Shown here in pieces: positions 1,121 through 54,596 of a stretch of DNA of 64,000 nt (the stretch's first letter is position 1; every line of letters starts with the position of its first letter). The stretch spans positions 62,001 to 126,000 of the forward strand of contig CAUDNR010004223.1 in NCBI GenBank assembly GCA_958430865.1. The letters are read 5' to 3'. The notes beneath the pieces were generated by a model. That model was not told the origin of the DNA, did no database searches, and was given only the letters and a program-made list of their open reading frames with translations. A program made the translations under genes and the position numbers. The stretch comes from Entrophospora sp. SA101 (taxonomy: Eukaryota; Glomeromycota; Glomeromycetes; Entrophosporales; Entrophosporaceae).

Positions 1121-1345
1121 ATGAAAGTAAAAAAAGTTAAAGAGATAAAGGAAGTTATCAAAGAGCCAAAGAGCTATTTTCTATTTAAAACAAAATGAAA
1201 GTTAATATTTTTTTCAAAACAATTGACTGTAATAATGGTAAATGATGAGAATACTTGCTATTTATTATTTAAAATAAATTGAAAATCAAACAGTTAATAT
1301 TTTTCAAGCTGTAATAATAGTAAAAAATAAAAATACTTGCCCTAT
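1120..1345 (-). repeat. Second copy of the array's terminal module
   Basis: Beyond the proposed stop at 1381 the minus strand has another 5-nt slot (1341-1337, ggcaa) and a 3-nt slot (1257-1255, caa). Then follows acceptor AAATAG at 1186-1181 and a sequence starting KIALWLFDNF, clearly related to the terminal exon KIAIWLIDNF at 1416-1387. This looks like a duplicated intron-terminal-exon module that could serve as an alternative 3' end. With 5+3 nt the frame would not be the same as in the first module, so it may be unused. Confidence 0.5.
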
Positions 1346-3400
1346 TTATTACATAAAATGAAATGAAAATAAATCAACAGTTAAATGAAGTTATCAATGA
1401 GCCAAATTGCTATCTTCTATTTAAAATAATAGAATGAAAATCAAACAACAGTTAGTATCTTTTTCAAAACAATTAACTGTAATAATGATAAATGATGAGA
1501 ATACTTGCCTATTTATTTATTTAAAATAAATTGAAAATCAAACAGTTAATATTTTTCAAGCTGTAATAATAGTAAAAAATAAAAATACTTGCCCTATTTA
1601 TTACATAAAATAAAACAAAAAACAACAGTTAATATTTTCAAAAAAAAACAATGATATTGACTGTAATAATAGTGGAATGATAAAAATACTCACACACTAT
1701 TTATTATTTAAGATAAAACGAAATCAACAGTTAGTATGTTTTCAAAAACAATGATATTGACTGTAATAATAGCGAAATGATAAAAATACTCACACACTAT
1801 TTATTATTTAAGATAAAACAAAAATCAACAGTTAATATGTTTTCAAAAACAATGATATTAATTGTAATAATAGTGAAATGATGAGAATACTTACTTCCTA
1901 TAATTATTATTTAAGGTAAAATGAAAATCAATAGTTAGTATTTTCATGATATTGACTGTAACAATAGTGAAATGATGAGAATACTTACAATCTATATTTA
2001 TTATTTAAAATAAAATGAAATCAACAGTTAGTATGTTTTCAAAAAGACAATGATATTTACTGTAATAATATTGAAATTATGAGAATACTTACACACTATT
2101 TATTATTTAAGGTAAAACAAAATTAACAGTTAGTATGTTTTCAAAAAAACAATGATATTAATTGTAATAATAGTAAAATGATGAGAATACTTACTCCCTA
2201 TATTTATTATTTAAGGTAAAACGAAATCAATAGTTAATATTTCAAAAAAACAATGATATTGACTGTAATAATAGTGAAATGATGAGAATACTTACTTGCT
2301 ATATTTATTATTTAAGGTAAAATGAAAATCAATAGTTAATATTTTCAAAAAAACAATGATATTGACTGTAATAATAGTGAAATGATAAAAATACTCACAC
2401 ACTATTTATTATTTAAGATAAAACAAAATCAATAGTTAATATTTTCAAAAAAAACAATGATATTGACTGTAATAATAGTGAAATGATGAGAATACTTACA
2501 GGCTATTTATTACATAAAATAAAACAAAAATCAACAGTTAATATGTTTCAAAACAATGATATTGACTGTAACAATAGTGAAATGATGAGAATACTTACAT
2601 CCTATATTTATTATTTAAAGATAAAATGAAATCAATAGTTAATATTTTCAAAAAAAAACAATGATATTGATTGTAACAATCGTGGAATAATGAGAATACT
2701 TACTTCCTATATTTATTATTTAAAATAAAATGAAAATCAACAGTTAATATTTTCAAAAACAATGATATTGACTGTAATAATAGTGAAATGATGAGAATAC
2801 TTACACACTATTTATTATTTAAGGTAAAACGAAATCAACAGTTAATATTTCAAAAAAAAAAATGATATTAATTGTGATAATAGTGAAATGATGAGAATAC
2901 TTACTTCCTATATTTATTATTTAAGGTAAAACGAAATCAATAGTTAATATTTCAAAAAAAAAAATGATATTAATTGTAATAATAGTGAAATGATGAGAAT
3001 ACTTACATCCTATATTTATTATTTAAGATAAAATGAAAATCAATAGTTAATATTTTCAAAAAAAAACAATGATATTGACTGTAATAATAGTGAAATGATG
3101 AGAATACTTACAGGCTATTTATTATTTAAGATAAAACAAAAATCAACATTTAATATGTTTTCAAAAAAACAATGATATTGACTGTAACAATAGTACAAAA
3201 TACTTACTTGACTATTTATTATTTAGAATAAAAATGAAAACCTATAATTAATATTTTTTCAAAAGCAATGATATTGACTGTAATAATAGTACAAAAATAC
3301 TTACAGGCCTATTTATTATTTAAAATAAAATGAAAGCCAACAATTAGTATTTTTTCAAAAATAATGATATTTATTGTAATAGTAAATATAATAATAAATG
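1200..3400 (-). repeat. About 100-bp tandem array; each unit is an intron plus a tiny exon
   Basis: About 21 degenerate units, successive slots spaced 84-105 bp. On the minus strand each unit reads: donor GTAAGTATT (or GTGAGTATT), TTATTACAGTCAATATCATTG, an A-rich stretch, a branch-point-like ACTAACTG or ATTAACTG about 35 nt before the acceptor, a T-rich stretch, and acceptor AAATAG or AAATATAG. The short stretch between acceptor and next donor is 3 nt in fifteen consecutive units and is the most variable part of the unit, while the splice signals are nearly invariant. Read as a satellite alone, the variable triplet exactly between AG and GTAAG would be unexplained. See the gene entry at 1381-3497. 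Confidence 0.9.
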
Positions 3401-3497
3401 AAGTACCTCGCATCGCCAAATTATTGTAATGCATTGGGCTTGCTGAAGCCATGATAGCAAAGATAATCAAAAAGAGAAGAGAAATATTGAATTGCAT
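1381..3497 (-). CDS. Secreted Cys-rich small protein built from single-codon microexons (predicted)
   Basis: Unknown family. Exon 1 (3497-3407) encodes a signal peptide: MQF, a hydrophobic core at about residues 5-16, then small residues ASAS at 17-20 before about ten polar residues. It ends in phase 1 at donor GTACTT. Then come 4-nt exons at 3308-3305 (gcct) and 3211-3208 (tcaa), which restore phase 0. Fifteen 3-nt exons follow, with left ends at 3112, 3007, 2905, 2805, 2704, 2599, 2500, 2399, 2296, 2195, 2093, 1989, 1895, 1794 and 1694. A 5-nt exon (1593-1589, ggcaa) and a 4-nt exon (1508-1505, gcaa) together add nine bases, and the terminal exon 1416-1381 encodes KIAIWLIDNFI and stop. Total 189 nt, 62 aa; the small exons spell GLQPDECEDPCQGCIECC. 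Frame closure through 21 exons and repeated donor, branch-point and acceptor signals are seen; splicing is inferred. It may be an effector-like secreted peptide. The exact 3' end is uncertain because GC donors offer alternatives at 1593 and 1508. Confidence 0.6.
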
Positions 3498-3550: not shown

Positions 3551-3559
3551 AATTATATA
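3551..3559 (-). promoter_or_regulatory. TATA-like element of the microexon gene
   Basis: On the minus strand the sequence reads TATATAATT about 55-60 nt before the start codon at 3497. Position and composition fit a fungal TATA element, although AT-rich DNA makes such matches common. Confidence 0.35.
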
Positions 3560-3730
3560 GGATTACTGTAAGAGTATTTATAAAAAAATGAAAGTGATTT
3601 TTTTTTTTCAAATTAGGATTACTGTAAGAATATTTATAAAAAAATGAAAGGGAATTTATTTTTTCAAATTGGGATTACTGTAAGAGTATTTATAAAAAAA
3701 TGAACGCGAATTTTTTTTTCAAATTAGGAT
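3560..3730. repeat. Three tandem copies of an about 56-bp unit
   Basis: The unit begins GGATTACTGTAAGAGTATTT and ends with a T-run and CAAATTA/G, starting near 3560, 3616 and 3672 with a partial fourth start at 3727. It lies directly upstream of the microexon gene. On the minus strand it contains CTTACAG, an acceptor-like string, so it might belong to a 5' UTR intron or the promoter. Confidence 0.75.
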
Positions 3731-3821
3731 TAACACTGATTTGTTGGTCGAATCAAATTTTTTTATTTCTATTTACTTTATTTATACATCTGTTGTATGT
3801 GAAATTCAGGAGTATAGTGAC

Positions 3822-16200: not shown

Positions 16201-18496
16201 ATTCTGAAATTCATTGTCGTCAAGAAGGAGTTTTTCGTACGGTTTGATATCACACATTTCTTTAATGTTGTTGTTATTATTTATCATTCTTGTAGAATTT
16301 CAATAATATTTCTAATTCAATTACCATTTCATAGAACTGTATGGATTGTTTAGATAGAACTAACGTTGTACAGGTAATCCAATTACTTGGTGTGATTGAT
16401 TATTAGTTTACTTATAAAAATATTATTCTATAAATACTTTGCCATATTTTAATATTTCTCCTCTCAAACATTAGAGTGCAATTGCAAGAGAAGTTTTAAA
16501 TTTGCAGCTTCTACGTTTAGGGGTTTCAGATTTTATAGATAATGGAATATCACATTATGAACATTTTGAAAATATATTTAATGATCGTATGTTTGTTATT
16601 AATTTTATTATTCTGTTATTTTTTCCCTAAAAAAGTCGACATTATTTGTTTTAAAAGTTAAATTTAAATATTGCTGAATGCTAAATGCTAAATCTCATTA
16701 TTTGCTTATTTATTAGTTTGGGCTAATAACGGTGATTCGATAAGTCGTGAGTACGCAGGCACAAGTGCATTAAAAGGAGATTATACAAGGTATTATTATT
16801 TATGATATATTTACATACTATATTCATATATTTTTTTTATCAATAAAATAAAGGCTAACAAAATATTTGTATGTAAATGAAATATTTTATTTTTAGGACT
16901 GGTAACTTAATTCATCAAGAATCATTACACATAATTAAAACCAATTAGTTAAATTTTAAAAAAAACCAATAATGAATTTATGATTAATATATATATATTT
17001 ATTTATATATAGGGAAAAGAAATTTACAAGGTGTTGTAAATGATGCATCAAATTCATTAGCAAGGCTATTTCAAAATACTTTAAAAGATTTTTTCAGACA
17101 AGTAAATTCAAATAAATATAAATAACCCTTTTTCATTATTACAATCATTATTTATTTTTTATTTATTTAATTTAATTAATCATTATCGTAGGCTACTATT
17201 GACTACATTCTTGGAAATCATACAATTGAAGTTTTTCAAGAAATACAACAAAAATTTGAAGCTTCACAACCGGGGGATGCTGATAGATGGGCAAAAGTTA
17301 GAGCTACTGCAAGCAAGTTTTTTAAAAACTTTTAAAAATATATAAATGTCAATGTTATTTATTTATTTATCAATTAATTCCATTGTTATTTATTTTTTTT
17401 CAGTTGAAATTAGTAGTTCGATTGTAATAATTGATAATGAAGAAAAACTAGCCGGGTGGACTTTTCTTTCACCATCTGAACCAAATACATTGTATGAATA
17501 AACATATAAATATATATTTCTTTTTGTTTGCTAATCAATAAAGAAAAAACTTTTACTAATTTACACACATGAATTTTATTTTAGGAGAGGAAAATCATAT
17601 GAAGAAAAAGTTATACTATTAACAAAAAAAGCATTATATGTCTGTACTTTTCATTATCGTCTTGAAAAAGTTATGCAATTTCAAAGAATTGGTTTGGGGG
17701 AAATAACTTGTATTGAAAAAGGCAAATACAACCAACTAATCAATTAATCTTATCATATAATATATAAAATTTATCGATTAATAATATTAATTATTATTAT
17801 TATTATTACCAAGTATTCTAATGAATATTCTGTTTTATTTAAATAAATAGGCGAGTATATATTATCGACGTTGTATCCTTCATGTGCTTCTCCAGAGGAC
17901 AATTACGGTTTTGTAGTTTATTATCAAGCATCTGGTGAAACAAGTCGTTTAAATACTGGTAGTATGCGTAATAACAACGAAAACAACAACAATAATAATG
18001 CTCAAGGAACTCAACGATTTATGGCATTCAAAGCTTTTAGAAGTAATTTAGTTGGCGAAGCTACAAAATTTGATGGTGGTAGTAGTTGTGTTGTTAGTGG
18101 TGGTGGTGGTGGTGTCGTCAGTGGAGCTGGCAATATTAATAATAATGATAGCAGTAATAGTAACGATGGTAATGGTGGTAATAGTGACACTAGACTTGGT
18201 GGTGGTCAATCAACGCATAAAAAATCGAGTCAACAAATTGTTTTTGAAGTTGTAGATGAAATTGTTAAAGCTTGTTGGGAAGTTGGTAATGCAGAAAATG
18301 TTGGTTTTATAGTGGAAAGGCCTATTATCAGGTAATTAATTAATTTTTTAGATGAAATCATTTTATGGTAGGAATATTAATTAACACGCACACACATATA
18401 TATATCTTTATACATATTAGTTTGGAAGAAGCTAGCAAAAATACTGGTATTATGACTAAAGTTGGATTTAGAGTAAAACAGGCATTATGGCTTTAA
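13276..18496 (+). CDS. Sac-domain phosphoinositide phosphatase, Sac2/INPP5F-like
   Basis: Twenty-three exons give 1041 aa in continuous frame. Exons: 13276-13456, 13518-13592, 13664-13794, 13895-14578, 14662-14737, 14824-14894, 14974-15030, 15112-15226, 15328-15410, 15537-15585, 15687-15909, 15997-16095, 16181-16241, 16335-16373, 16475-16586, 16717-16789, 16897-16901, 17013-17101, 17192-17312, 17404-17491, 17585-17721, 17851-18331, 18421-18496. The Sac domain shows FVETEQI, RGSIPIFWSQ, FDFHKECKGM and the catalytic CX5R(T/S) motif NCMDCLDRTNVVQ (Cys637, Arg643), then YAGTSALKGDYTRTG. The C-terminal region (EKVILLTKKALYV ... EDNYGFVVYY) resembles the PH-like Sac2 domain of INPP5F, so a 4-phosphatase acting on endosomal PI(4)P is the best family guess. 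Exon 4 adds a low-complexity Ser/Asn/Asp linker, exon 1 a polyproline run, and exon 22 Asn and Gly tracts. Exon 17 is 5 nt. Three donors (15411, 17313, 17722) appear to be GC. Everything from 16331 onward is duplicated in the right arm. Confidence 0.88.
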
Positions 18497-21400
18497 AAAA
18501 ACTTATCATTGTTATTATAATATGGTTCATTAATAATTTATATTTTTTAGATATTTATTTTATTTCTCATTATTTTCATTATTTTCATTCATTATTATTT
18601 ATTCATTGGTTGATATATAAAACAAAACAATCAAAAATCAAATTAAAAAAATAATCAATGAGACATTCAAAGTATCGTTTCCTTGCCAACACCACGAAGA
18701 TTTTCTATATTCTTACAATCTCATCGGATTCTGAAAGGTTGTGTGTATTTTCACAGTCCCTTGTCTTCATCAAACTTTGGCATCAGATTCTATAGTCTCG
18801 AGAAATTCTTGAGCGTGGAATTTTCAGGCATAACATTCAACACAATTTCTTACACATGTGTGTTTTTTGTACATTGGGTTATACTTTTGATAATCAAGTT
18901 CGATGATTTGTTTGTTATCCTTGCACACTTTTTGGCGGAAAGTATCTATAGAGAATAATTGCAGTTTTTACGCTATTCTATTAATCTTCTCCACTTCTTT
19001 ATCATTGCATCACGCTTAACTAACACGAGATTTTTTCTTTTTATATTCTTATTTTGCCTATATTTTTTTATTTTTGCGAGGACATTATCTAAAAAGCGGA
19101 CGTGTAGCCTTTATACGTTTTGTAGTTTTGTGTAAATTTCATGAACAATCTTTTCGTTCACAATGGATGCTCTGTTTCGTTTCCTTGACTTATAATAAGT
19201 TTGACAATAAACGCACGTTTACCATGATATATATCTTAGATACTTCACATTGTATTAATAAAAAGTTTTCTATCAAGTATATAATACCTTTGATATGTTA
19301 TCAATAAATATAGCCTAAGCAGAAATTTTGCTATAGCACAAACGCACATCTATATATACAAAAGGACAGACATGCCTTTAAACAATTTTCTAGCAAGAGA
19401 TACCACTAATAAACTAATATATGAATCTCGAGCGATTTCTGATTTCTCTGTTTTAATAACTCACTCACACCTATCTATAAGGATACTATTCTATCTCTGG
19501 TGTTTTTGCTTTCTATTATGTTATCTAAAGATGTATTAAGTCTACAATTTCACTCCAGAAATAATAATATTAATGATGTTTGAAAATAATATATATGTGA
19601 AATGCCTAGTTTTATCAAAAAAATATTCCAAACGGTTTCCCAAGCAAATAATGCAGTCTTTATGCCAAGAGATTCCTGGAAAGAATTATAGTGAACTAAA
19701 CCTTTGCCGCTTTTCTTAAAGCCGTAGTACTTTGGTATATTAAAAAAAAGCTTTTTGCATAAGCTTTGCTAAGTTTCCTGATTCCTTTTGGCTTTTTTTT
19801 TGAGAACCTTTCATGTGGGTGTTATTACTATTATCGCCTTTGCTTCGATTATCTTACACACACAATGAGCAATTTCATTTATGCCTATATCAATTTGCCT
19901 AGTGCGTCAAAATCGTAAATAATATGTTAAATAGATATAAAAGTCAAAGTATGAACATGATCTTTATATCCATCTGCTGTGTTGTGTGTAAGATATCCTT
20001 AAACTATAGAATTCACACATATTTCCACGGAAATGCTCAGTGTGCTAATATCTAATGAATTTGCTTGTAATATGTTATTTTCATCATTTTCCTGTGGTTG
20101 GAAATTGGATTCATATCAAAAATTCACCATTTAAAATGCCATACATTTCTACCAGTTTGACTCATTCATTTCTCATCGTATCAATGCGAGTGAACACCTT
20201 CCATCCATATGTATATAGGCATACGGAAATCTCTAAGATATTATCAATTATCGTCGTCAGAACTAATGACTCCTCGACTATAAGGAAAAGATAAACAGAT
20301 TGGGGTCCCTGAATACTTTTGTCGTGCGTGCATCAATCTGCTATTTTTTTTGGATAATTAAGTTCGACAATTTTTGTAACTTTTGAAAAAAGACTATAAA
20401 ACTAATGGTCTAAGGATTCCTTATCTTTAATATTTGCCAATTGAGTGTAGTGCTTGTCGTGAAGCCTCTTGTCATACAAGTAAAGTAGTTTTTATCCCTT
20501 GCTCATAATTATTGATTTCTTGACAATTCTTTATCTATGACTAAGATAGCTATCAAACAATCATGCTCTAATATTATTAGCTTATTTTCTGGCTTCCTTT
20601 TCCGGTCTTCTTTTTTTTTTGTTTCTTTTGGTACCTTTTTTTCTAAAAAAGAATAAAAGAAAATTTTTTAATTGATAAACACGTAAAACTAAAGATTCTA
20701 AAGATTCTTTATGCTATGCTAATTGAGCCTAGTGTCTATAATGAACCTTCTTGCCATATAAGTAAATTTTTATGCCTCGTTCAAAATTATTTATTTCTTC
20801 TTTATCTATAACTATAATAGCTCTCAAACAATCGTGCTCTAATATTACTTGCTCATTTTTGTTTTCTTTCTCGTTTTCGGCATTTTGAAACTAAAGGTCC
20901 TAATGATTCTTTATTCTTAAAGTAATTATGTGATACCATGCTAATTGAGCGTAGTGTCTATATTAAATCTTCTTGTCATAAAGTAATTTTTGTGCCTTAT
21001 TCAAAATTGTTCATTTCTTGACCTATAACTAGAGTAGCTTTCAAGCAAACATGCTTTAATGATATTTATTCATTTCTAGTTTCCTTGTTTTGTTTCTATA
21101 TTTTTTTAAAAACAGTATTTGATCGACAAACGCGTAAACACTATAAAACTAAAGGCTCTAAGGATTCTTTGTTTTCTAAAGTAACTATTGATGCTAACTA
21201 TCATGCTCTAATGACATTTATTCATTTCTGGCTTTTTCCTTGTTTTGTTTCCTATATTTTTTAAAGACAATATTTGATCGACAAACACGTAACACTATAA
21301 AACTAAAGGTTCTAAGGATTCTTTATTGTCTAAAGTAACTATTGATGCTTCTAATGTTACTTGCTCATTTCTACCTTTTTCCTTGTCCCTACTCTTCTTC

Positions 21401-22340
21401 TTTGTTTTTTTTTTGGCATTGTTTTTTTAAAAAAAAAAAGAGATTAGGTTTTTTGATCTAGATGGATCCGCATATTCGACTTACAAAAAAAGGATGATCC
21501 TATAGATCTTATTTAAAGCTGAGAATATCAATTGATTCATCATTACCGAAAAGTTGTGACTTAATAATTTGTTAATTAGAACTCATCTGAGGATATTTGT
21601 ATAAAAATGGCATAGAAGATCATTGATGTAGTGACCTGATTTTGCTAGAAACCCCATATTAATTAGAAAAAAATCTATTGCTTCCTAAATTATATCTATC
21701 TACATAACTAGAATGACGACGGGTTTCAGATCAATAATCACACCATTATCCTTTTTTAAAATAAATAGAAACAGCTTCAAGTCTCCCTATTTTAAAAAAA
21801 TATTCACTCAATTTGCCTTTCCTTCTGAAATGGTTTTTCGTATTTTTTTGACCTGTAATAAATGAGTTGCTTGTTATTATTTTTTTTCTTGTACAACACT
21901 ACGTGCCTGATCATATTAACGCGAACCTTGGAGGCTGATTGGTGTGATTTCTCTGTTTAGGTAATGATTTACGAAGACTAATTATACAAAAGTCACATGA
22001 ATTTTTCAAATGCACTTATCTTTAATGGCTACATTACTGATCACTAAAGCAAAAGGTCATCCCGGTTATAAAGAGAGTGCAATTGAGTTATTTTTGGTGA
22101 TGAGTTGATACAGTCTAAGCTCTATATACCGAACTCCCTGCCCTTTATTATTATATGTAATTTTTCTGCTTTTGTTCATTATATAAAGTGTTTACTAATA
22201 TGTTCGTTATGTTCGTTATACAGAGAGAAATTAATTATAAAAAATTGAATCGGGGACAAAAGAGAAGTTCGCTTTAGAGAAATATTACTTATTATTTGTT
22301 ATAAAAGGTTCAGTTTCAACATCCATTTAAGGAAACAGTA
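18497..22340. other. Intergenic region, no gene recognised (left arm)
   Basis: About 3.8 kb of AT-rich DNA with scattered frames of under 95 codons (18683-18958, 19074-19307, 20055-20294) that match no family I know. It includes the tandem repeat at 20380-21440. The composition is less extreme than other spacers, so decayed transposon DNA is possible but not shown. Confidence 0.5.
20380..21440. repeat. Degenerate tandem repeat of about 150-290 bp (left arm)
   Basis: Five units are anchored by ACTAAAGGTTCTAAGGATTC-like strings near 20398, 20688, 20890, 21150 and 21300. Most contain CTAATTGAGCxTAGTGTCTAT, AATCATGCTCTAATATTA and CTTTTTTTTxTTTTxGG motifs. The units differ by deletions, so this is an old array. 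The mirror copy is at 58891-59951. Confidence 0.7.
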
Positions 22341-22820
22341 AACAATCAGGTTCTGGTATTCCTTCTTTGAAGTCTCGAATAAAAGCAATGTTCCAATAAA
22401 GAATCAGGAATACCTTTAAAATCCTTAATCATTTTTTCAACATCAAAAATGGTGTTTCTATCAGTCATATAAAGTTCCATAATTTTATCAGTTTGCATTT
22501 CAACAAAGTCTCCTTTCTATTGTAATCATTAAAAAAAAATTCGATTTTACCAACATTGCATGTGTACATTTTTCTTCCCCTTCTATAAACAATAAAATGC
22601 ATTTCACAAGTATTTTGCACTTTTAATCCTAACTTTTCAAGAGGATTAGTATATAAAGCCTACAGTTATATTTTTTTTTCTTTTCAAAGATTTTCTTCGA
22701 TAGTAGTGTCCAATGTTACACGTGCTTCGATATGTAGAAGAGAGCCTTAACACGAATAGAAAAAACTGGAGGGAGGTTTGGCACAGGAATTAAACGCATT
22801 CTTTCTTTCGTAAAGTTCAT
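22341..22820 (-). pseudogene. Decayed coding remnant, family unknown (left arm)
   Basis: The minus strand shows short in-frame stretches broken by stops and frameshifts: RLIPVPNLPPVFSIRVKALF near 22785-22726, EKLGLKVQNTCEMHFIVYRRG near 22636-22574 and KIMELYMTDRNTIFDVEKM near 22488-22432. They run in consistent order on one strand and look like remains of one protein. I do not recognise the family, and no start or splice structure could be reconstructed. Confidence 0.4.
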
Positions 22821-25317
22821 TTTTATTGTATTAATATATATATTAATTATAAAAATAATAATTCATGAAAATCAAGGTATATACAGTATATATTATTATG
22901 GGAAAACCCCTCTTAAGTTAAAATATTAGCTTAATAAAAAAAAAATGGAGAATTTTATCCTGGTCCTGTCTTAAAGAAAATTTTTTTTACTTTTTTTTGA
23001 AAAAAAAAAAAATCAATCGAGCATTAATAAACATTAAAGATGGATGGTACAATAAACAGAGACTATTTTTTGTGTTGATGCCTTATTTTTTCAAATAAAT
23101 GTGGCTTTTTACATTATACAAGATTCTTTATCAAATGATTGGTATACATTTGGGTAATTGTTATTAATGTTAACGTCAATGATAAGAAATGCCTGGGGCG
23201 AAAAAAACAACGCAACTATTGGTGCTTAGACAATTTGAAAACATCTCGATATGCAACATTTGATCATTGGATGGAAACTTATAAATGCTAAAGTGTATTT
23301 CTTCAGGGCTCAAATATTAAAACATTACAATTACTCTCTTATTCCCCACACACATAAGGCTAATATGACCTGGGCCTCAATGATACGATGATGCAATTAA
23401 ATCGTAGCTCAGAGGTTTATCGAAATGGCAACATTGTTAAAGGAGACTTCCAAAGCCTCTCGCTTGTCCAAAGGCTTCCGACGCATCGGAGGTCTCACCC
23501 GTGAAAAAATTCCATAGATATAAAGTGTGTGAGAGTACATGACTGGATTTTTCGATGGAGAAAATTTTCGTATGATCAAGGTTGGCGTTGGACATAATTA
23601 TTATTATCCTACACCTCTAGATCCGAATCCAACAACCTTCCATTTCAATCACCAATTTAACCACTATCATCTGACTTACCATCATCAAGAACTCCAAGTC
23701 ATAATACACCTTACAACTCCAATCTTGCTGTCTATGACTTATTCATTTTACTTTTTTGGGAATGGTTTTAAGGAGGAATTCTACAATTTATAATTGGGAG
23801 AGAAATAATTTTTGAGAGAATTTTGGAATAGAATTATTATATTTATTATTTATTTATTATTTATTTATTATTTATTTATTTTGGTTCCATAAGTTTCATT
23901 TCTTACTTATTTGGATATAACATTAACACATTACATAATAATAATCAAAATTATTCACGTCTGAGGGGAAAAAAGACAAGTAATAATTTATTTATTTGGC
24001 CACTCTGGCGTAAATCTATTATTACAATTGCTAATATTGGTAGTACCACCTTCATTTTTTTTTCTTTTTCTCTATCCCTTTTATAATTCTTTTTTTGTTT
24101 TTTTTTTTTTGTAGTGAAGGCAGCAATTCCCTTTCATTCTCTATATAGCACACAATTTGTGGATTACCAAATGAAAAAAATATGGATTCAGCTAAAGAAT
24201 TGTTTGGAATCCTCCCACACCTTTTAAAATTTCCATCAAGTTTGATTATTTTATCAATCTTTTTGTTGATATCATAGAGTTGATTTTTACAGGTTTGATA
24301 AGATAGTAAGTAGAATAGTTGGTCCAATCAACAATCCACAAAAAAATAGGTTTTTTTTATAATGCTGATTTTGATTTGAGTTTTGCTTTAAAAATGTAAA
24401 ATAGCAGTAAGAATTACGACAATGATTCTTTTTAATATCATTGGTAAAAAAAAAATCATATTTCAATTTTAAATTTTACGGAATTTTCTCGCGAAAAATA
24501 AAAAATGGGCTGTAATTTCTTGTGATATCATAAATGTTCAACTTTGTCCGGCTTTTCCATTTAATCCATTTTTGTCATTATTAATAACAATGAATAGATT
24601 AGGTTTTTTTATATATTTTGAGTAAAAATTGTTACACATGTTTTCAAACATAAAGTAAATATTTCAAGCCTTTCTACTAGATCCAATTTCTTTGCCGATT
24701 ATATAATCTTTGTATTATTTATTTAAATAAAAATTTGGTAGTCCATATTAATATTTTGCATAAAGGTGCAGCACGAAATTTTTATTACACGATAATCACG
24801 TGCAAGTCACGGGCGTTCAGTGGTTTACGGGAATGAAAATTGCAGTGCAAAGTGTAGAGGATCACCACGCGCCGAACTTGGAAGGATCATTTAAACTAAC
24901 GTTAAACTATAAATTAAAGTTTTAAGAAAATAAATTAAAATTAAATTAACCAGTTGGTTACGTGCATTTACATCTTATTGTTAATTTCGCTAATATCATT
25001 TAAAAATCGTTCTCTTAATATACAATTTATTGAATATGTTTCCGCTCTTCTTCTTTTTAGTATTTTTAGCATATTTGGAACAGGGTTAGAGATTCACCTT
25101 TTCAAAGGAGATACAGTAGACATTTAACAATACAAAAGGCCCCAATATTATCAACGAGCTTAATTATCGAAACATCAAGATTACTTTGTAATATATAAAA
25201 TTTGATTTATTTATCAATTAAGAGAACATATATTTGTAAAAGATATTTATGTATTTGAAAAGTAAAAAAAAAAAAAACTAATACAATTTTTTTATTTTTA
25301 TCATTCTTACAAGGAAA
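22821..25317. other. Intergenic region downstream of metallothionein (left arm)
   Basis: No gene assigned. Positions 23400-23530 are a small GC-richer island with an intact 30-codon frame starting at 23425 on the plus strand (basic, MATLLKETSKASRLSK). The frame at 23539-23793 is His/Tyr-rich and unconvincing. Positions 23838-23880 are a TTTATTA microsatellite. A 91-codon minus frame at 24327-24052 ends in a poly-Lys run that comes from a homopolymer. Confidence 0.45.
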
Positions 25318-25645
25318 TTATTTTTTTTCGCATTCACAACTTCCAGCAGCGCAGCTACAGCCTGAAGCACAATTGCAGGTACTAAGTAGTAGTAGTAGTA
25401 GTAATAATAATAATAATAGCAAGAAGAAATTAAATTAATCTTTTAAAGAAAATAAATCTTTAGATTGATTAATCGCAATAATAAAATATTATTGTTTACC
25501 ATTCTGGTTCAGTTTCGATTTTTTGATCAACGAAAATTTTTTGTTTGTCAGCAGTTGACTTGGTATTAGTACTTCCACAAGTACAAGAGTTAGGTTCACA
25601 TTGGCAGGTATCGTTACAATTGCAATTACTACCGCAAGAAGACAT
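25318..25645 (-). CDS. Metallothionein (left-arm copy)
   Basis: Two exons, 25645-25500 and 25381-25318, encode 69 aa. Fourteen cysteines sit in two clusters of seven: residues 4, 8, 10, 14, 16, 21, 23 and 49, 51, 53, 57, 59, 64, 66. They are mostly CxC pairs, joined by a cysteine-free linker of 25 residues rich in Lys, Asp and Thr. This is the two-domain layout of metallothioneins, cytosolic thiolate-cluster proteins that bind Cu, Zn or Cd. Size and layout resemble metallothioneins described from arbuscular mycorrhizal fungi. The intron splits the codon of Cys49; reading through it stops at once, so splicing is needed for the second cluster. UreF is transcribed divergently from a start 752 bp away. 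An identical copy lies at 54686-55013. Confidence 0.9.
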
Positions 25646-25734
25646 TTTTTGATTTTATGATTTATTTATTTTTTAAATTGTTATTTATTCAGTACAAGTG
25701 TGAATTGATTAATCAAAAGGATTTTTGACAGAAC

Positions 25735-25742
25735 TATTTATA
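25735..25742 (-). promoter_or_regulatory. TATA box of metallothionein (left-arm copy)
   Basis: TATAAATA on the minus strand, about 90 nt before the start codon at 25645. This is a clear match, inside a spacer shared with the divergent UreF gene. I did not identify metal-response elements with confidence. Confidence 0.5.
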
Positions 25743-26397
25743 ATTGTTTTTTTTTGTTATTATCATCATCACGAAAAAAAGAAATTAAAGATTTACTTTG
25801 ATGATTAATTGATTTATCCAATTAATATACAAAACAGTTAAACATCAAATGTCTTTAACAAATCATTTAAATCCCTCACTCCTAATACTGATAATACTAG
25901 CGAAATTAATAGTTTTCAACTTTAATTACGACAACTGAATAAATTTAATGAATGAATGAACAAACGAATGAAAAAAAGGGATTCGGTGAGGTATTTAATT
26001 TAATATTAATTAGTTTGTCATGTTACGTGTCATGCCATGCAATAAACCTTTATTTATTCAAGATCAGTCAGTTGCTAGAATAAGCCACCTTATCGAAATT
26101 TTTTAAGGTTTTAATGTATGTAGCATGTATGTAATCTGTATGAAATTTTATTTCATTCATGTATGCACTCCATACGCAGTATGATTTCTTAGATAAGATT
26201 TATTTTCTCATGGGACATTTATTAAGAATTTCAATTATTTTATTTTTGTAGATATTTGAAAATCCCAACCTTTAAAAATATTATTAAGAACATTATCATC
26301 ATCAAAATCTAACGTCGTTATCGGCATCCAACATCGTCCTATCATCATCCATAAACTTCCTATCATCCATAATTTATTCATCATCCACAATAATAAT

Positions 26398-27335
26398 ATG
26401 AATGTTGAAAATAATCGAGAGGATTGGTTACTTTGGCAAATTTCAGATTCTGCTTTACCTACTGGTGGCTTTGTCGCATCTTCAGGTTTAGAAAGTGCTA
26501 TACAAACTGGTTATGTTCATGATATTCCCAGTTTATCGATATTTTTATCCTCCAGCATAGATAATTATGCATTTTCATCCCTACCATTTGTAACTGGTTC
26601 ATGGAACATCGGAAACACTAATAATGAGGAGGAGGAGGAAGAGGAAGAGAAGGATAAAGATGTAATATTGAGGAAAATTATGGAATTGGATGACTTGTAT
26701 GATTCCTGTACAAGCAATCATGTTGCAAAGCGTGCGTCAAAAGCTCAAGGTGTTGCAATGTTGATTTTATTTAGTAAATCGTTTAATAAAGGAGAAGGAG
26801 AAACAACAATTGTAAAAGATAAAGAAAATCAAAATAGTAATAATGATAATGACGATAATAATAATGATGATAGTAGGTTTAATGATAAAATAGTAGAAGA
26901 TTTTAAATTAAATGTTAGAAAAGAATTGGCATGCGGACATTTGCCGGTGTGTTTTGGATTGGTTACTAGATATCTCGGAATAAGCCTGGGTGATTATTTA
27001 TATCACTTTATTTGGTAATTTTAAAAATTTTTTTAGGTTTTTTTTTTTTTCACTAACCATTTGCTATTATATATTACTGTAATTTTTTAGAAAAAACGCA
27101 ACATTTATATCTTTTTCTTTTTGCAAGAGCAATTATCTCGGCAGCGGTTCGATTGAATATAATCGGACCTTATTATTCTCAAAGAATGTTAACAGAATGC
27201 TGCCAGGTATATGTAGAAAATTCGTTGAAAAAAACTTGTAATATCAAGGTTAATGATGCATCTCAAACATCACCTTTATTAGATATTTTACAAGGAAGAC
27301 ACGACAAATTATATTCCAGATTATTTAATAGTTGA
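26398..27335 (+). CDS. ureF: Urease accessory protein UreF (left-arm copy)
   Basis: Two exons, 26398-26989 and 27091-27335, give 278 aa. Family features in order: WLLWQISDSALPTGGFVAS and GLESAIQTG near the N-terminus, RASKAQG in the middle, then HLPVCFGLVTRYLGISLE, KTQHLYLFLFARAIISAAVR and LNIIGPYYSQ. These match UreF, which with UreD/UreH and UreG delivers nickel to apo-urease in the cytosol. The donor chosen (GTGATT at 26990) is the only one that joins GISL to EKTQ in frame; a later in-frame stop would otherwise truncate the protein. An acidic Glu run (about residues 78-86) and an Asn/Asp tract (about residues 148-161) are fungal low-complexity insertions. The mirror copy is at 52996-53933. 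Confidence 0.92.
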
Positions 27336-28635
27336 TTGATTAATTATAACTAACAATATTAATTTATCCATTACCATATTAATTTAAAAAAATTTTCTTT
27401 ATGTATAATTTTAGAAAATAAAAAATTTTTCAAATTCATCATAATCCTTGTTAATTAATAATAGCAGTAATCTCAAGATATGAAAGGTTCGTCAATGATG
27501 ACGATTGATTTATTACGATAATAATAATAATAATATTCTAACGTCACTATTATTGTTGTTGTAACAATTATAGATATGGTATGATACGATAATTGCAAAT
27601 TGTATGAATCAATTAATGAAATGAATGAACGTGTGTATATAAAATGAAATAGCATCGTGGTCAATCATTATTCTAAACGTTATTATTTATTGTCATAATT
27701 ACAACAATAGCAGACAATAGTGATAGTTATAGTATCAATAATGATTTAATTTGTCGATTTAGTTTTCTATCAGTAAATCATATTCGGTAGTTAGCATTAA
27801 CAAGCATTAATGTTATTATTGTAACTTGTTTCGCAACTACTTTGTTGATCAAGATTTAAATTTTCACGAGTGAAAAACCAGAAGGAAATTATATAGCGAC
27901 AAATATTTACGTTTTACTGACTTCCAAAAAAAAAATTTATAAAGTGTGTCCGGTTAACATTAATAATAGTAATAATAAATAATTAAATTTTGCTTTGCCT
28001 TTCCATACATGTAACACGTAAAACGAAAACTGGAAAAAAAAAATGCTGCACATCATGTAACTGTTGTACAGTACTTCAGCCCATACAAAAAGATCGCTTT
28101 ATTTGTATATAGAATATAGAATACAAAATGTAAAATTTAAAAATGATGATAATCTTTTTCAAAAAGAAAAAGAAAATTGTTTAATTAGAAAAAACTGCCG
28201 TATCTATCTGTTTCTATTTCTATTTTATTTAAAATATGCATGTGATAATGTAATGTTATATAGATGTGCATTTTATTTTCATAAATATTTATGTTTTATT
28301 TTATATTATTTATAAAATCTTTTAAAATCAGCCTTATAAAACCAAATTATTCGTAAAAATTCCCCTTTTTTATTTAATTATAAATTATTATTCTTTGTAA
28401 ATAATTTTTAATTCAATTACCTTCAAAAAAAAGTCTTATTAAAAAAAATTTTTTTTTTTAAAAATCTCAATTTCATCTTGCATATACAATAATTATAGAT
28501 AGAATCATTCATCATTATTAAACAACTTTTCGAAAGTTTTAAACACACCACACACACATTATATCCTAAAATTGATTATAATTATCTAAAATTAAAATAA
28601 ACAATTTAAATAATCAATAAAATAATCCCAAAACA
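27336..28635. other. Intergenic region (left arm), nothing recognised
   Basis: 1.3 kb of AT-rich DNA between UreF and the Ivy1-like gene, both on the plus strand. Frames at 27473-27664 and 28064-28315 are composition-driven. The last 120 bases before 28636 have an A/C-rich, T-poor leader typical of a fungal 5' UTR. Confidence 0.5.
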
Positions 28636-30656
28636 ATGTACAATTACGCAGGCATACCAATTTCACCAACACCATCAATTAGAACCATAACCTCAATATC
28701 GTCATTTTCATCGATTAGAACTGCAGAGCCGGTTTCTGCTGATTCGTTTGTAATGATTTCCAAGGCTGACACACGTTCAACCTTTGAAACCTATGAATCT
28801 CTATTAAGCGCCTCAAAAAACTACAGAAATCAAATGATTGCCCTTTCACAAGCTGCTGCTAGTTTTGGTCAAGCATTAGAAAGAACCGCTCGTTGTAAAG
28901 GCGCAGATGAAGCTGGTTAGTGGGAGATGATTTTGGAAGAAATAATTAATTATTAGCTGGCTGGTTGACTAGCTGACTGACTTTACTTACTGATGATTGA
29001 TTTTCATTGTGTTTAGGTCCTGGGTTACAAGCTGCCGCCGGTTTACATTACCTAATGTCAAATCATCAACAACTTTTGGTACTTGCCATTATTATTATTA
29101 TCTAAATAAATGGCTTTGCATGTTTACATGCTCACATGCTTACATAAAATGCTTACATACATTGTTTTTTTCTTTTACCAGAGCGATACGTTCTATAAAC
29201 AATTTGAAATTCCATTACTAGAAAATTTTGACGAACACAAATCAGTGATCATTGGTAATGAAGAAACTTACGAGAAATTGATGAGTGAAATGAGCAAAAA
29301 AATCAAGGAAACCGAAGCTCGAAATTTAAAAAATGGTCGCAAACGCCAAAGAGGTAAACATTGATTGATAGAATGATATGTGTATATTACGTATGCATAT
29401 TATATACTATTTACTAATATAGTAATTTTTACCAAAATAATTATTTGTGTCTGTAGATCTTGGACAATTTCGTAAGGTATTTAAAAATTTTTTGTTCACC
29501 AAATTCTAAAAAAAGAATTGATTGAATCCTAATTTTTTTTTTCTAACATCATCTAATCTTTTCTATTAAAGGCTTTAAAAGATTTAACAAAACAAGTAGA
29601 GGAGCTTGAAAAATTGAAAAACGAACATTATAAACAAACTTTAGAAAATGAACAAAGGAATTTAAATTTTATTCTTTCAAAAGTTTCTTCGGTTGTAAAA
29701 ACAGAAGTTAATATCTTTGAAAGAATATGTAATAAAGGAAAAGCTGATCCTTTATTAGAACAGGTAAACAACAACAGCAAATAATATGTGTATTTATGAT
29801 ATGTGTTTATGGCGTGTACTCACACTCATACACATTATAATTTATTCATTTGTAGATGATAACAGAAGGAAATGATCCATTTAGTTCAGGTCAAACAAAA
29901 GATCAATCTTCACTATCTCCTTCATCAATTTACAACAACAACATAACAAATGGACATTCGAGAAACAACAGCAACAATAATAGTAATGAGATTCCTTGTT
30001 GCTCACCGACATTAACAAATTTTTCATCCGAGAATCTTGGAATGTATAACTCACCAAGTAAACTTCCCCGTACAAGTCTCTTTTCTAAAGATTATAATAG
30101 ATCATCTGCAAGTTCTTTATATCAAGATGGTGATGATGATGAAGATACCAATGAATTTTACTTTTATCATAACGATAATAACAGTAATAATTTCCTATCT
30201 TATAATGGTAGTGAAAACCGTTCATCACCACTAAAAATAAATAGACCAAACTTTGTTTCAAACATTAGTGATCTTGCATCGCTTTCACCAAATTCTGGCA
30301 ATCCTTCCGACAACGAAGATGATGGTACCACTGTAAACAATCATCATTTTTTAAATATTTCTGGTGATTCTGATTTATTCGTTAGTAAAAGTTTTAATTT
30401 CGATTCAGAGGAAAATGGTAGTTTGGCCAACAGTTTTCACGATGTCGTAGATGGAAATATGGAAGATAAGGATTGTGATGAGAATGATAATACACCAAAT
30501 CAAGCTTTCTTATGTGTTAATAACAACAAGGTTGTTGTTGATAAAGAAGAAAAATCATCACAACAATCATTTTTATCAAATACAGACACTAAACCATTAT
30601 TTGGGTCAAATTCTCCTTTTATAACAAGAAGTCGTTCTTCTACAATATTTGCTTAA
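28636..30656 (+). CDS. Ivy1-like BAR/IMD-domain membrane-binding protein (left-arm copy)
   Basis: Six exons, 28636-28915, 29017-29078, 29182-29353, 29457-29476, 29572-29763 and 29856-30656, give 508 aa in one frame. After a Ser/Thr/Pro-rich N-terminus come ISKADTRSTFETYESLLSAS, LSQAAASFGQALE, GLQAAAGLHYLMSNHQQLL, FEIPLLENFDEHK and a long helical coiled coil through KKIKETEARNLKN, LKDLTKQVEELEKLKNEHY and DPFSS. This order fits fungal Ivy1-type I-BAR proteins, which in yeast bind phospholipids and Ypt7 at the vacuole. The C-terminal half (about residues 250-508) is a disordered Ser/Asn/Asp-rich tail. Exon 4 is only 20 nt. The family call is from memory of the conserved order; function here is inferred. 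The mirror copy is at 49675-51695. Confidence 0.8.
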
Positions 30657-31616
30657 TTTTTATTAATTAGCATTAATTTATTATTTATATATTTATATTC
30701 ATTTATGTAAATTTTCAATTTATTAATATTGTTTGTAATCGCTTTTATTTTTTTCTTTCACACCTCTCTTCTATTATATATATAGATTGTACAAAAAATC
30801 CGCATTCCATCAATACAATAATACATTAATATATGATATGCTATTTATAATTCTCCTTTTTGATTTTTTTTTTCTTTTTTTTTTAAAAAAAAATTTTTAT
30901 TAAGTTTAATTTATAAAAAAAAAAAATATATATTTATAATATATATACACATCACAGTTTAAAAAAAATATATATAAAATAAAAAATAAATCTAGATTTA
31001 GACGACAAAAATTGAAATTATTTTTGGGAAAAAAGTAATTGCGGTAATAATTAATATAAAATAATATCAATGGAATTTTTAAACAGTTCAAACATAATCA
31101 TTTTCGGCGTTTCAGAAAGATGGAAAACACCTATGATCACCACTATGCTTTATTATTATTATGTACGTCATGTAAATAAACTTTGCCATTTGATTACGTG
31201 GACATAAAGGAATTAGTAATTCATTTACTATTTGTTAACAAATAAAAAAAAAATAATTCCAAACTCCAAAGGTTGTGCAAACTGCATAAATTTTTAAATA
31301 GTAACCCTGCAGGGCTGTCACATTATTATATAATACAAAACTGTTTTCTCCCATTTGTAATCAATCCTTTCACAAATCACCATCCCACAAAAAAAAAAGG
31401 ATTAAGCCGTGGATTAATTTGAATAAGTTTTTTGATTATTATAAAATTTTCAAATATTAGTGAATTTTCTTATTTTGAAAAAAATTAGTAATTATTATTA
31501 TTATATATTATTATTGTTATTATTATACATTGAATACAGTTGGTTATCTGCTATATTAATTTAATAAACATAATAAATAATTATTTAATGATAATATACT
31601 AATTAGAAAATTAAAA
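30657..31616. other. Convergent intergenic region (left arm)
   Basis: It lies between two genes converging on it, so it should contain both 3' ends. It is dominated by T/A homopolymers (30860-31020) and TTA microsatellites near 31490-31560. No gene recognised. Confidence 0.5.
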
Positions 31617-32310
31617 TTAAGAGGACACTTCATTAACTGCATATTGTTGACCAAGCGATTTAACTTTTTCAATTAATGCTTTGAACGCGGCCTTTTGTTC
31701 TGCAGTTGGTTTAACTTCTGATATTGATTGTATACATCCTTCTGCACATCCTATTTATCAAAAAGGAATTTTTGTTATTATATATAAATAGTTATAATAG
31801 CAGTTGTAGTAATTTAATTAATTAATAAATACCATTACGCCATTCAAAATCTTCGGATTGAAAAGTAATAGATGTATCAAATCCATAAATATCTTCGCTA
31901 GCCTGATCACTCTCAGTAGGTAACTTTGAAAGATTTTCACGAACATCATTGGAAAATTCTTTAACTTGATTACTAAAAAAAAATATATCAACCAATTTAA
32001 TTGTTTGTAATTATAATAAATAATTGAAAAATATTATTATTATTACCTGGTGACTACACCTTGTTTAGATTTAAGTTCTCTATTCACAAGAGCTGAATCG
32101 TTAACTACGCCACCATTTTCATCACCATTTATTTCTATACGTCGTCTTATCAAAAAATTATCATCACCATTATTAATGGATTCCTTATTATTTAATATAT
32201 ATATATATATATATATTTACACATAAGATGGATTATTATAATCACCTGACAGTTGGTGGTTTAAAACCTCCCCTAATTCCTTCGACCAACACTATACGAA
32301 AAGAACTCAT
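31617..32310 (-). CDS. Conserved-looking protein of unknown function, 145 aa (left-arm copy)
   Basis: Four exons on the minus strand, 32310-32246, 32145-32047, 31972-31833 and 31750-31617, total 438 nt in frame. The protein starts MSSFRIVLVEGIRGGFKPP, continues TVRRRIEINGDENGG after the first splice, has an acidic middle with ITFQSEDFEWRNG, then CAEGCIQSISE and a helical C-terminal AEQKAAFKALIEKVKSLGQQ. There is no signal peptide or membrane segment. The CxxxC pair and final helix are the only notable features; I do not recognise the family. The acceptor at 32146 was preferred because the earlier AG would break the frame. The mirror copy is at 48021-48714. Confidence 0.7.
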
Positions 32311-33669
32311 TATACAGAAAGAAGAAAACTTTTTTAAATAAAAATATAAATTATAGAAAATTTAAATTCAAGCCGAGAGAATATTTTTCAACTTGCGCAT
32401 CAAAAAAGTTTAAAATGCTCAATTTTAACCTTATTCGTACAAGTTCATTGATCATACGGAAATCTGTGTATGAAATCATGCATATCCTTGATGTCATGAA
32501 TTTGCTTTTTAAGTTAAATTGATTAAATCTAGAACAAAATTTAATTAAATTTTTCAACTTCTTTTTTTTATGATCATTTCTTTTTCTAATCAATTTGATT
32601 GTTCGTTGATTGGCTGATTGTTTGGCGAGTGCATTTAATGATATATATATATCTAGTAAGTATAATTTTTTGAACCGAAATAGATCCAAAATTGGTTAAA
32701 AGGACTAGGATTGTCTAAATTAGGAATTTGGATGTTTTACAAAAACAAATTGCCGGCATTATAACAATAATAATTTATTGTTTTGGCCAAAAAATAACAC
32801 TAACTGCTTTCTATTATATAAATTTTTGAAACAGGTGATTTCAAAAATGACATTACTAATCACCTGATTTTTAAAAATATGTTCTTTAAAAAATTGTTCG
32901 TTGTTAGTTATTATCAGTTGGGAATTTTAATTAATAAACAATAATAACCAAGACAACAATTTCCTCTCCAGAATGCATTCATTTGCTCCAACTGTTCATA
33001 TGACCCAGGGCCCAGGGTTATGTTGATGAGTATATATGCGCGCGATCGGACGAATTGCTTTGCTGGATAAATTACGCATTCTAAATTCCGACTATTCCCA
33101 ATTGAGTATCTCCAAAGCAAGCTTTATAAGAAGATAAAAGATTAGAAGTTATAAATTGTAATGTACTGCAGAGCTTGAGACAACCATTATAAAACTATAT
33201 AAACCGATCACTTGTTCCATGATACTCGGGAATATGTATACTAAATATCTATTAAATTTTGTGTAACAAGTAATATAAAAACAATGGTGAATTAAATTTT
33301 TTTTGTATACCTAATTTGGTAACTCACGACTCGCATCAAACTGTTCCTCCTTTAAACTTTGTCGTCTTATCCAATATTATCAAGGCTTTTTACACTATTT
33401 ATCAAGTGACGTTATAACCTTTATATATATATATCCATTCATTCCAGCCATAAAAAACCTGGTTTTTTTTTTTTTAATAATTATTGATTTACACGTGAAT
33501 GAATGTTAATAAATTGATTAATATATTTGTCACACGAATTAATTTCACAAAATGTTCTATATATATTAATTTATTTTTTTTCAAGTGAGAAAATATTTAT
33601 TGCAACGTAAAAAACAAAATCGCTTTTTAATTAAAGAGGTGAAAATAAAAGAGAAAAGAGAAAGAGAAA
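32311..33669. other. Divergent promoter region (left arm)
   Basis: 1.36 kb between divergent genes. Minus-strand frames at 32351-32689 (Lys/Leu-rich) and 32914-33120 lack family features. A GC-rich patch with GGGCCCAGGG and GCGCGCGATCG lies at 33005-33055. The stretch before 33670 is A/G-rich (AAAAGAGAAAAGAG), like a 5' UTR. Confidence 0.45.
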
Positions 33670-35227
33670 ATGATAAAAAAAAGTCACAAAGTTAGTTCGT
33701 CTGATTCAAAATTAATCACATTAAAACTTGAAGAGAAATGTAGACTTGAAAACCAAAATAATAATAATAATATTAACAAACATGAAGGTGTGGAGGGAAC
33801 AAAGGTTTGTTGTACTGGTGGTAGTTGTAGTAGTAGTAGTAGTGAAAAATTTAAAGGCAATGAGAAAGTGATTGAGAAGAGATAATAACAGAGATAATTC
33901 TATTTTTTTTTTTCGAAAATTAGGTTCGTAAAGAAGGATCAATAAAACATTTAGGAATAACATTGACAGCGTCACCTACTATACAACATACAGATTTATT
34001 GCATTACATAGCGAAAAAAGAACGCAAAGTGCTTGAATTAAGAGAAGAGTTAAAGAGAAACGAAGAGGAATTGAGTTTATTGAAGAAAAAATGGGAAACC
34101 ATTTTCACAAATCAAATCATTAATAGCCCAGAGAGTCCAATAAATAACAATAAGGATAATGAAAATAATAATAATAATAACAACAATAATAATAATGCTA
34201 TCACTGCTACTAATGGTGATCGTAATAAACAAGATGGAAACGGAAAAGAAAAGGAGAATGTGAATGGTGTTGGAATTGGAGAAAATGATGATGATGATCA
34301 ATCAGATGACGTTGAAGTTATAAAGTTAATGAATGGATTAAGTAAGGGAATAGTGGGAGTAGTTAATGGCATAAAGAATGTAGCAGAAAGTGAAGTGTAA
34401 GTGATTAAATTAAAAAAAAAAAATGACGACGATGATTATTATTTCTTACAAGTTGTTTCTAATCTAATTTACCCACTCGTACTTTTTTTTTTTAGAACTC
34501 ATGAAAAATTATTAAAGATTAGAACAGTGGTTGCAGATGTTGCAAATTATGAGCCGTAAGTTATAATATTATTATCAATTATATATAATCAATCATAATC
34601 AATCATTCAATTAATATAAATTATATATGTATAGTGTTAAACAAACAAAAAAAATGACTTTTGATTTTACATCACAAGCTTTTGACAATATCACTAAAGG
34701 ATTTTCTTCAATAGCACAATCTGAAACGTAATTACTTTTATTGTTTATTTTTTTGATGGGTAAATTTGTATTGTCATCTTCCAAATAAATAACAAATTAT
34801 CATTATTAGAATTAGGAATGCAAGAAGAAAGACATTGGAAACTGTTTATCAATTGAATGAAGTATTGGCTCCAACTTCTCCTCCTCCTCCTCCTATCACA
34901 TCCAACAATTCCATCTATGCATCCTCGCCCATTTCTACATCACCACCACCACTACCATCTACATCCACATTTTCATCATCATCATCATCGTCATCAACAT
35001 TTTCTTCTTCCTCTTCACCTTCATCTACCACTTCAACAAATCCTAATTCTCCAAAAACTCCAATACAACAAACTTGGTCACCAACAAGCCAAACTTTCGG
35101 TGTTTTCACTATACAGAATTCAAAACAATCAGATGAAATAATATCAACAACAACAACAACAAAAAGTGAAGAAAATAATGATGGTTATAATGAAGAATCA
35201 TTATACATATTTAATGAATTATTTTGA
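33670..35227 (+). CDS. Coiled-coil protein with low-complexity tracts (intact copy)
   Basis: Five exons, 33670-33804, 33924-34396, 34496-34555, 34635-34727 and 34810-35227, give 392 aa in frame. After a basic N-terminus comes a heptad-like helix at about residues 63-103 (LLHYIAKKERKVLELREEL, then KRNEEELSLLKKKW). A poly-Asn/Asp tract follows, then VEVIKLMNGLSKGIVGVVNG, THEKLLKIRTVVADVANYEP, FDFTSQAFDNITKGFSSIA, ARRKTLETVYQLNEVLAP and a Pro/Ser-rich tail. It may correspond to a fungal coiled-coil domain of unknown function, but I do not recognise it securely. The repeat boundary falls at 35144, inside the last exon, 83 bases before its end, so only this copy keeps the native C-terminus. Confidence 0.75.
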
Positions 35228-54588: not shown

Positions 54589-54596
54589 TATAAATA
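54589..54596 (+). promoter_or_regulatory. TATA box of metallothionein (right-arm copy)
   Basis: TATAAATA about 90 nt before the start codon at 54686. Mirror of 25735-25742. Confidence 0.5.

Follow-up and report, generated by a model that had tools for sequence, protein, structure and literature searches.

Our analysis concerns a gene on the minus strand near the beginning of a 64,000-nt stretch of DNA (positions 62,001 to 126,000 of contig CAUDNR010004223.1, assembly GCA_958430865.1; hereafter the window). Its first exon appears to encode a signal peptide with a short pro-region and is followed by two 4-nt exons and then by an array of fifteen exons of one codon each, the slots. The exon sizes given by an original prediction made on this DNA (a 91-nt signal exon, 4 nt, 4 nt and then fifteen times 3 nt) were reproduced base for base, and the slots read in frame gave the same GLQPDECEDPCQGCIECC, the Cys/Asp/Glu/Pro-rich string that it had claimed. 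The array therefore stands as described, while the picture of a lone gene has to be corrected: the gene is one member of a family, which very probably encodes small secreted, mostly KR-processed and often Cys-rich peptides, put together one codon at a time by serial splicing and evolving by the gain and loss of whole cassettes.

Reading frame, splice signals and product of the arrays

The original prediction had proposed a search for other arrays of the AAATAG-NNN-GTAAG type. The search covered 101.3 Mb in 2123 contigs and found the family: for AAATAG-N{k}-GTAAGTATT with k from 1 to 6 there are 16, 0, 323, 48, 4 and 1 exact sites, against 4, 1, 2, 0, 3 and 5 for the reversed patterns. Contigs with a match to the signal exon contain 46 of the 48 sites with k = 4 and 15 of the 16 with k = 1. 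For the signal exon itself, 55 matches were found genome-wide, some of them duplicated. Longer stretches were taken for 31 loci (L039-L069, the window gene being L039), and 29 of these were modelled. Curated models of 23 loci yield 22 different peptides; L049 and L050 have identical slots.

The joined codons of the family members are free of stops. In a strict test, loci were joined by a fixed rule that left nothing to hand choice: the 22 loci, which include 311 3-nt exons, show no stop in 366 codons when read in the frame that exon 1 sets, and 15 and 79 stops in 344 codons each in the two other frames. The curated models, which include hand choices, behave in the same way (0 of 490 in frame versus 17 of 469 and 99 of 469). 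The phase-0 slots alone contain no stop in 389, three of which lie behind the array end; after removal of near-duplicates, none is found in 188 slots versus 8.3 expected from the positional composition of the slots (P about 2e-4, if the slots are independent), and intron composition would lead one to expect a stop in 7.1% of the slots. Among the 100 T-initial slots listed, of 104 genome-wide, there are no TAA, no TAG and nine TGA, the latter all on contigs C65, C200, C1117 and C1987. The TGA-containing arrays read on C65 and C200 belong to a second architecture (L059 and L065, respectively), in which exon 1 ends in ...C/GT (the slash marks a splice boundary) and is followed by a single 4- or 7-nt exon and then a phase-2 array. 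Their TGA slots are harmless because TGA in phase 2 is no codon, and the frame stays open. Several arrays of this second architecture lie on C65.

The phase of the arrays is set by the exons ahead of them. Exon 1 ends in phase 1 in 29 of 29 modelled loci, and exons 2 and 3 each measure 1 or 4 nt in all 22 type-A loci where both are readable, so that the array begins in phase 0. Exon 3, or exons 2 and 3 together, measure 1 nt in 9 of the 22 rule-joined loci (both in L045 and L056), and the codons split over these two exons give the common peptide starts IPA, IPV and VPV. The introns of the family are about 98 nt long and near-identical between the exons. The longest unbroken runs of 3-nt exons number 30 (L040, L047), and L058 would hold 45 single-codon exons, the longest array read, if two cassettes without a donor (TGTGAGAGTG) are passed over. 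This locus lies at C1325:37800-44300 and has a large block duplicated internally. The predicted array peptides range from 7 to 47 residues and are often Cys-rich, as in SLTCDLLGSCYCYPGCDELCPQASNCNEYCDLLGSCYCYPGCVELCS (L058), IPAWPWWLPKDPCDGENWKCKK (L052) and VPVPKAPAPKNPRHTGKEK (L062).

The slots are flanked by mostly uniform splice signals. Information content is 1.66-2.0 bits at donor positions +1 to +9 and 0.04, 0.10 and 0.52 bits at the three slot positions; the search pattern had largely fixed the AG and donor letters one to six, and +7 to +9 were free. GC content is 38% in the slots and 19% in the flanks. The donors of the 389 phase-0 slots comprise 333 GTAAGT, 32 GTGAGT, 9 GTGGGT, 6 GTAAAT, 5 GCAAGT (two of them behind the array) and 4 others. 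Six copies of the U1 RNA were found in this genome, and the two that were read have the 5' end ATACTTACCTG. The full donor GTAAGTAT is completely complementary to the 5' end ATACTTAC of this RNA, and such pairing can compensate for the absent pairing on the exon side. Slots of the form NAG are missing from the 188 phase-0 slots (7.1 expected), and genome-wide there is no CAG among 80 C-slots, no GAG among 59 G-slots and no TAG among the 100 listed T-slots. Seven open reading frames (ORFs) of the window do use such codons (GAG 21/72, AAG 13/63, CAG 19/128). Such avoidance of NAG is to be expected if an AG beside the donor acts as a competing acceptor, and we read it as an apparent sign that the 3' splice sites are really used. 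As a small control made by eye, one ordinary intron each was inspected in a tubulin gene (124 nt, AAAG/GTAAAT to GATAG/) and in a UreF-like gene. A branch-point scan was dropped and no statistics were drawn from it; its hits were mainly TTGAT motifs located a few nucleotides 3' of TTAAC.

Evidence on the product comes from a protein search with 16 predicted precursors. The only relatives returned by it and by a second alignment search were P0001 and P0002. P0001 has 56 aa and lies on a 1024-nt JGI record; its leader ...ASPTHNNNLAKR continues into RLPTVWCWDEQWAQWYDCRDPYVSE without a translated intron, the part after KR comprises 25 residues, and its composition is similar to that of certain array peptides, with Trp, two Cys and Pro close to the start. 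P0002, on a 654-nt record, instead has intron 1 translated directly after the leader, which is also what the genomic DNA of L060 gives on translation. The simplest origin of P0001 would be a spliced transcript from a related organism. The suggestion of the original prediction that the slots are coding exons of one codon gains support from this contiguous protein as well as from the frame test in the paralogs, the discrete slot length and the phase set by exons 2 and 3.

That the product is secreted, as had also been proposed, agrees at the level of sequence with the signal-like N-terminus of the predicted precursors (judged by eye) and with the KR ahead of the array in 23 of the 29 modelled loci, in three of which the following exon supplies the rest of the R codon. 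The exceptions are MR in the window gene, RR in L047 and L048, ER in L062, EHR in L065 and none in L066. Pfam did not assign the 16 predicted precursors to any family: AtDEF-like reached 21.6 bits against a cut-off of 25 (E 2.7e-4) in one member of the 16 (L058), which falls short of defensin-like membership; every other family had E 0.028 or worse, and MF_alpha_N, which would indicate a mating-factor pro-region, had a best E of 0.038 in three of the 16.

The window gene and its 3' end

The features of the window gene are collected in Table 1. The donors of exons 2-18 are GTAAGTATT (n = 14) and GTGAGTATT (n = 3), and TAG ends every acceptor. The motif TAGNNNGTRAGTATT occurs 15 times in the window versus 0.03 expected, and all 15 occurrences fall inside the array. 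The short repeat directly upstream of exon 1 is a possible promoter region.

Table 1. Features of the array gene and its surroundings in the window
Feature	Position	Strand	Description
Exon 1	3497-3407	-	91 nt, phase 1 end; encodes MQFNISLLFLIIFAIMASASPMHYNNLAMR and 1 nt; donor GTACTTCAT, GT type
Exon 2	3308-3305	-	4 nt, GCCT
Exon 3	3211-3208	-	4 nt, TCAA
Exons 4-18	3114 to 1694	-	fifteen 3-nt exons; introns 91-102 nt
Exons 4-8	3114-3112, 3009-3007, 2907-2905, 2807-2805, 2706-2704	-	CCT, GAT, GAA, TGT, GAA
Exons 9-13	2601-2599, 2502-2500, 2401-2399, 2298-2296, 2197-2195	-	GAT, CCT, TGT, CAA, GGA
Exons 14-18	2095-2093, 1991-1989, 1897-1895, 1796-1794, 1696-1694	-	TGT, ATT, GAA, TGT, TGT
Site TAG/G/GCAAGTATT	1584..1593	-	1-nt exon and GC donor, or 5-nt exon GGCAA and donor GTATTT
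Site TAG/GCAAGTATT	1500..1508	-	0-nt (ratchet-like) site and GC donor, or 4-nt exon GCAA
Terminal exon	1416 (acceptor AAATAG) or 1409 (acceptor GATAG) to 1381	-	stop TAA 1383-1381
Partial second copy of the 3' end	1150..1341	-	G/GCAAGTATT site, AAATAGCAAGTATT site, terminal motif GCTCTTTGGCTCTTTGATAACTTCC at 1174-1150
Array as tandem repeat	1561..3381	-	period 101, 18.1 copies, 82% matches
56-bp repeat	3558..3732	-	3.1 copies, directly upstream of exon 1; units contain TTTATAAATA

The last two small exons were originally given as 5 and 4 nt. The closure of the frame, which was part of that claim, holds; the sizes are doubtful, and the paralogs suggest that the two sites may leave 1 and 0 nt with GC donors. 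The start of the terminal exon (1416 or 1409) is tied to the reading chosen for the two sites before it, and both readings reach ATT TGG CTC ATT GAT AAC TTC ATT TAA (1381) in the same frame. Exons of 5 and 4 nt with donors GTATTT and GTATTC have in their favour this closure and the fact that GT donors are commoner than GC donors. With such exons, however, GCAA would be left at each site, and the terminal frame of L040, which has three sites, would differ from that of L042, L043, L051 and L058, which have two; moreover, GCAAGTATT equals the array donor at every position except +2. We therefore find the larger exons rather improbable.

The 3' ends of 13 loci were examined in this respect. AAAG/GTAAGT is present in 9 of the 13, and TAG/GCAAGTATT sites precede the shared terminal region in numbers from none to three per locus. 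Sites of this kind also occur in L040, L042, L043, L051, L056 and L058, and when they are read as leaving 0 nt, the loci arriving in phase 0 all enter the terminal exon in one frame. Among the 23 curated loci the exons that change the frame lie near the end only. A 7- or 10-nt exon joined to the next 3-nt exon produces a junction-spanning stop in L045, L055 and L056. The true end of the window gene is uncertain because a partial second copy of the 3' end lies downstream.

Further away, the window contains a perfect inverted repeat (16331-35144 and 45187-64000) with arms of 18,814 nt, 100% complementary and 10,042 nt apart, the second of which extends to the window end; possibly it is an assembly artefact or a recent palindromic duplication. 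Matches to the signal exon in opposite orientation within one contig were seen on C783, C1691, C200 and C65. A UreF-like urease accessory gene with one short intron lies at 26398-27330 on the plus strand, and its inverted copy has an ORF at 53933-53313 (identified by eye).

Proposed splicing mechanism and its alternatives

In the mechanism that we propose, every intron would be recognised by itself through its donor GTAAGTAT, a TTAAC/CTAAC-like branch region and an A/T-rich acceptor ending in TAG. The introns would be removed serially, in an order that we infer: once an intron has been taken out, the lengthened exon 1 lies directly at the following donor, and one codon is gained per round. Such a process would be akin to recursive splicing, except that 3 nt stay at every stop, and the AG/GT or AG/GC sites leaving 0 nt at the 3' end would act as plain ratchet points. 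The peptide would then be released after KR by a protease of the KEX2 type. In the course of evolution, unequal exchange between the tandem introns would insert or delete codons as whole units, leaving the frame intact; the slot codons would be under strong pressure to change.

The exchange of whole cassettes had been part of the original prediction and is supported by the paralogs. L051 (IPAWP----KDPCDGEN---KK), L052 (the peptide given above) and L053 (IPAWPWWLPKDPCDGEN---KK) differ by blocks of codons, L048 is without a block that L044 has, and the internal duplication of L058 is of the same kind. These differences fit unequal exchange between near-identical introns combined with strong codon diversification. 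In the most similar bin of cassette pairs (6386 pairs) the flanks are 3.8% divergent, yet the slots are 65% divergent per site, no less than pairs taken at random (0.73, 0.72 and 0.53 by position). Part of this contrast may be due to constraint on the introns. Identical slots make up 16.6% of the syntenic and 8.9% of the other pairs in the most alike bin, pairs that share units and are not independent. The test for purifying selection at syntenic slots separated poorly and was used for saturation only.

The same data bear on the alternatives to codon-by-codon splicing. A plain minisatellite or a non-coding RNA array with splice-like motifs arising by chance would account for the tandem repetition with a period of 101, but not for the signal-peptide exon that precedes the arrays, the rule for exons 2 and 3 in all 22 readable loci, or the outcome of the frame and slot-length tests, and we regard it as exceedingly improbable. 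If exon 1 were instead spliced to the terminal exon, leaving the array as one long intron with old splice signals, the frame would stay open, the 3-nt exons being frame-neutral. Unused slots, however, would gather stops, and there are none in the 366 in-frame codons; only the slot varies and exceeds the flanks in G+C, and P0001 has a part of 25 residues after KR. Such a skipped array appears to us very unlikely. It is less easy to dismiss the possibility that transcripts of one gene retain differing subsets of the single-codon exons and give many peptides. Every phase-0 slot is symmetric and the donors differ in strength, as their counts above illustrate, which would permit this; on the other hand, the donors are mostly uniform and close to the ideal, as one would expect if they were used constitutively, and the codon blocks hold their order between paralogs (L052/L053, L044/L048). 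On balance we consider combinatorial inclusion unlikely. A broader codon-cassette system, in which the gain, loss and exchange of cassettes edit single residues while recursive codon-wise splicing and, the cassettes being frame-neutral, selective skipping produce a set of related peptides from each gene, is a tentative idea that we find possible, if doubtful.

A number of observations weigh against the serial splicing of codons that we prefer, or limit how far it can be taken. Slots and loci are related by descent, and the counts are thus not independent. The 55 signal-exon matches overstate the number of genes: distinct genes are fewer because the assembly contains duplicates. Several members look damaged: L064 has a stop in exon 1, L046, L057 and L061 have no readable exon 2 or 3 (the sites are missing), and L066 and L068, left out of the curated set, carry a 4-nt slot in mid-array; these six are possibly decaying copies. 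The two cassettes of L058 mentioned above have no donor at the slot, and the array of L044 (C1772:146100-152600) is split between two cassettes by 2.6 kb of unrelated-looking DNA. The first small exon of L065 can also be read as 3 nt, and this locus does not settle the phase. The predicted C-terminal ends are uncertain, and the precursor of the window gene may be poorly processed, given MR in place of KR and the GC donors near the end. The window peptide alone gave no candidate in the search of 5.8 billion proteins, and P0001, whose transcript status is itself deduced, could come from an intron-less gene instead. Finally, exons as tiny as these are difficult for a spliceosome to handle, and skipping could be common.

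If codon-wise splicing is true, these genes would stand at the far end of what split genes can be: every residue of the mature peptide would be encoded by a separate exon, tens of them in succession and throughout a gene family. They would also offer a test of how the spliceosome copes with exons of 1, 3 and 0 nt in series. The design would be an evolvable one, as codons can change, appear and vanish without damage to the frame. Ordinary gene prediction is likely to miss secreted peptides of this kind. If the organism is a root symbiont, as the original prediction implies, the peptides would become candidates for signalling to the host.

Relation to known systems

In recursive splicing, as known from Drosophila, an acceptor and a donor stand together and a long region is removed stepwise with 0 nt left at each ratchet point. 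The array does not have the juxtaposed AG/GT that leaves 0 nt, and 3 nt stay at nearly every step; sites leaving 0 nt as at ratchet points are confined to the 3' end (AAAG/GTAAGT in the 9 of 13 loci, and TAG/GCAAGT). In the precursors of KEX2-processed peptides and mating factors, a signal peptide, a short pro-part and KR precede the mature peptide, all encoded by ordinary exons. The dibasic KR directly before the mature peptide in most of our loci is of the same design.

One-nucleotide exons have been described in Arabidopsis APC11 (PMC4674806) and in Fusarium CYP621A, which its authors present as the second such case and the first from a fungus (PMC12940212). They show that the spliceosome can include an exon of 1 nt; as described there, each is a lone exceptional exon in an ordinary gene, whereas in the array family 1-nt exons recur.

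Two groups of secreted or surface proteins of mycorrhizal fungi invite comparison. The SP7-like effectors of arbuscular mycorrhizal fungi have hydrophilic imperfect repeats, several of them with a nuclear-localisation domain (PMC11333574). Their resemblance to our genes lies in a modular, secreted product and in a conserved intron immediately ahead of the repeats, and the passages of that paper available to us describe no tiny exons in them; hydrophilic tandem repeats of the SP7 kind were not seen by eye in the array peptides, apart from the internal duplication of L058. The AGL genes of Glomeromycotina, which encode variable cell-surface proteins, have one or two introns and a long second exon, and their products are rich in P, G and A, many with a glycosylphosphatidylinositol (GPI) signal (PMC8786786). 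As in the array genes, the signal sequence is encoded by a short initial exon, which an intron follows directly, and the introns are more conserved than the mature coding part (PMC8786786). Among the open-licence papers searched, preprints not included, no array of single-codon exons in fungi was found.

The nearest known kind appears to be the micro-exon genes (MEGs) of schistosomes, whose exons are described as 3-81 bp or 6-81 bp, the vast majority of 15 bp, with introns from 100 to almost 5000 bp (PMC10526429). As in these genes, secreted proteins would be encoded by a series of tiny, mostly frame-neutral exons which are hard to annotate (PMC10526429), and many consecutive tiny frame-neutral exons, by which MEGs are recognised, are predicted in the arrays. 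In contrast to the MEG exons, mostly of 15 bp in that account, the array exons measure exactly 3 nt and alternate with near-identical tandem introns of about 98 nt. The likeness is one of gene design, drawn from the published description and from what we infer to be a different kind of organism, and we do not claim membership of the MEGs for the arrays, which in their row of single codons exceed the limit described in the literature searched.

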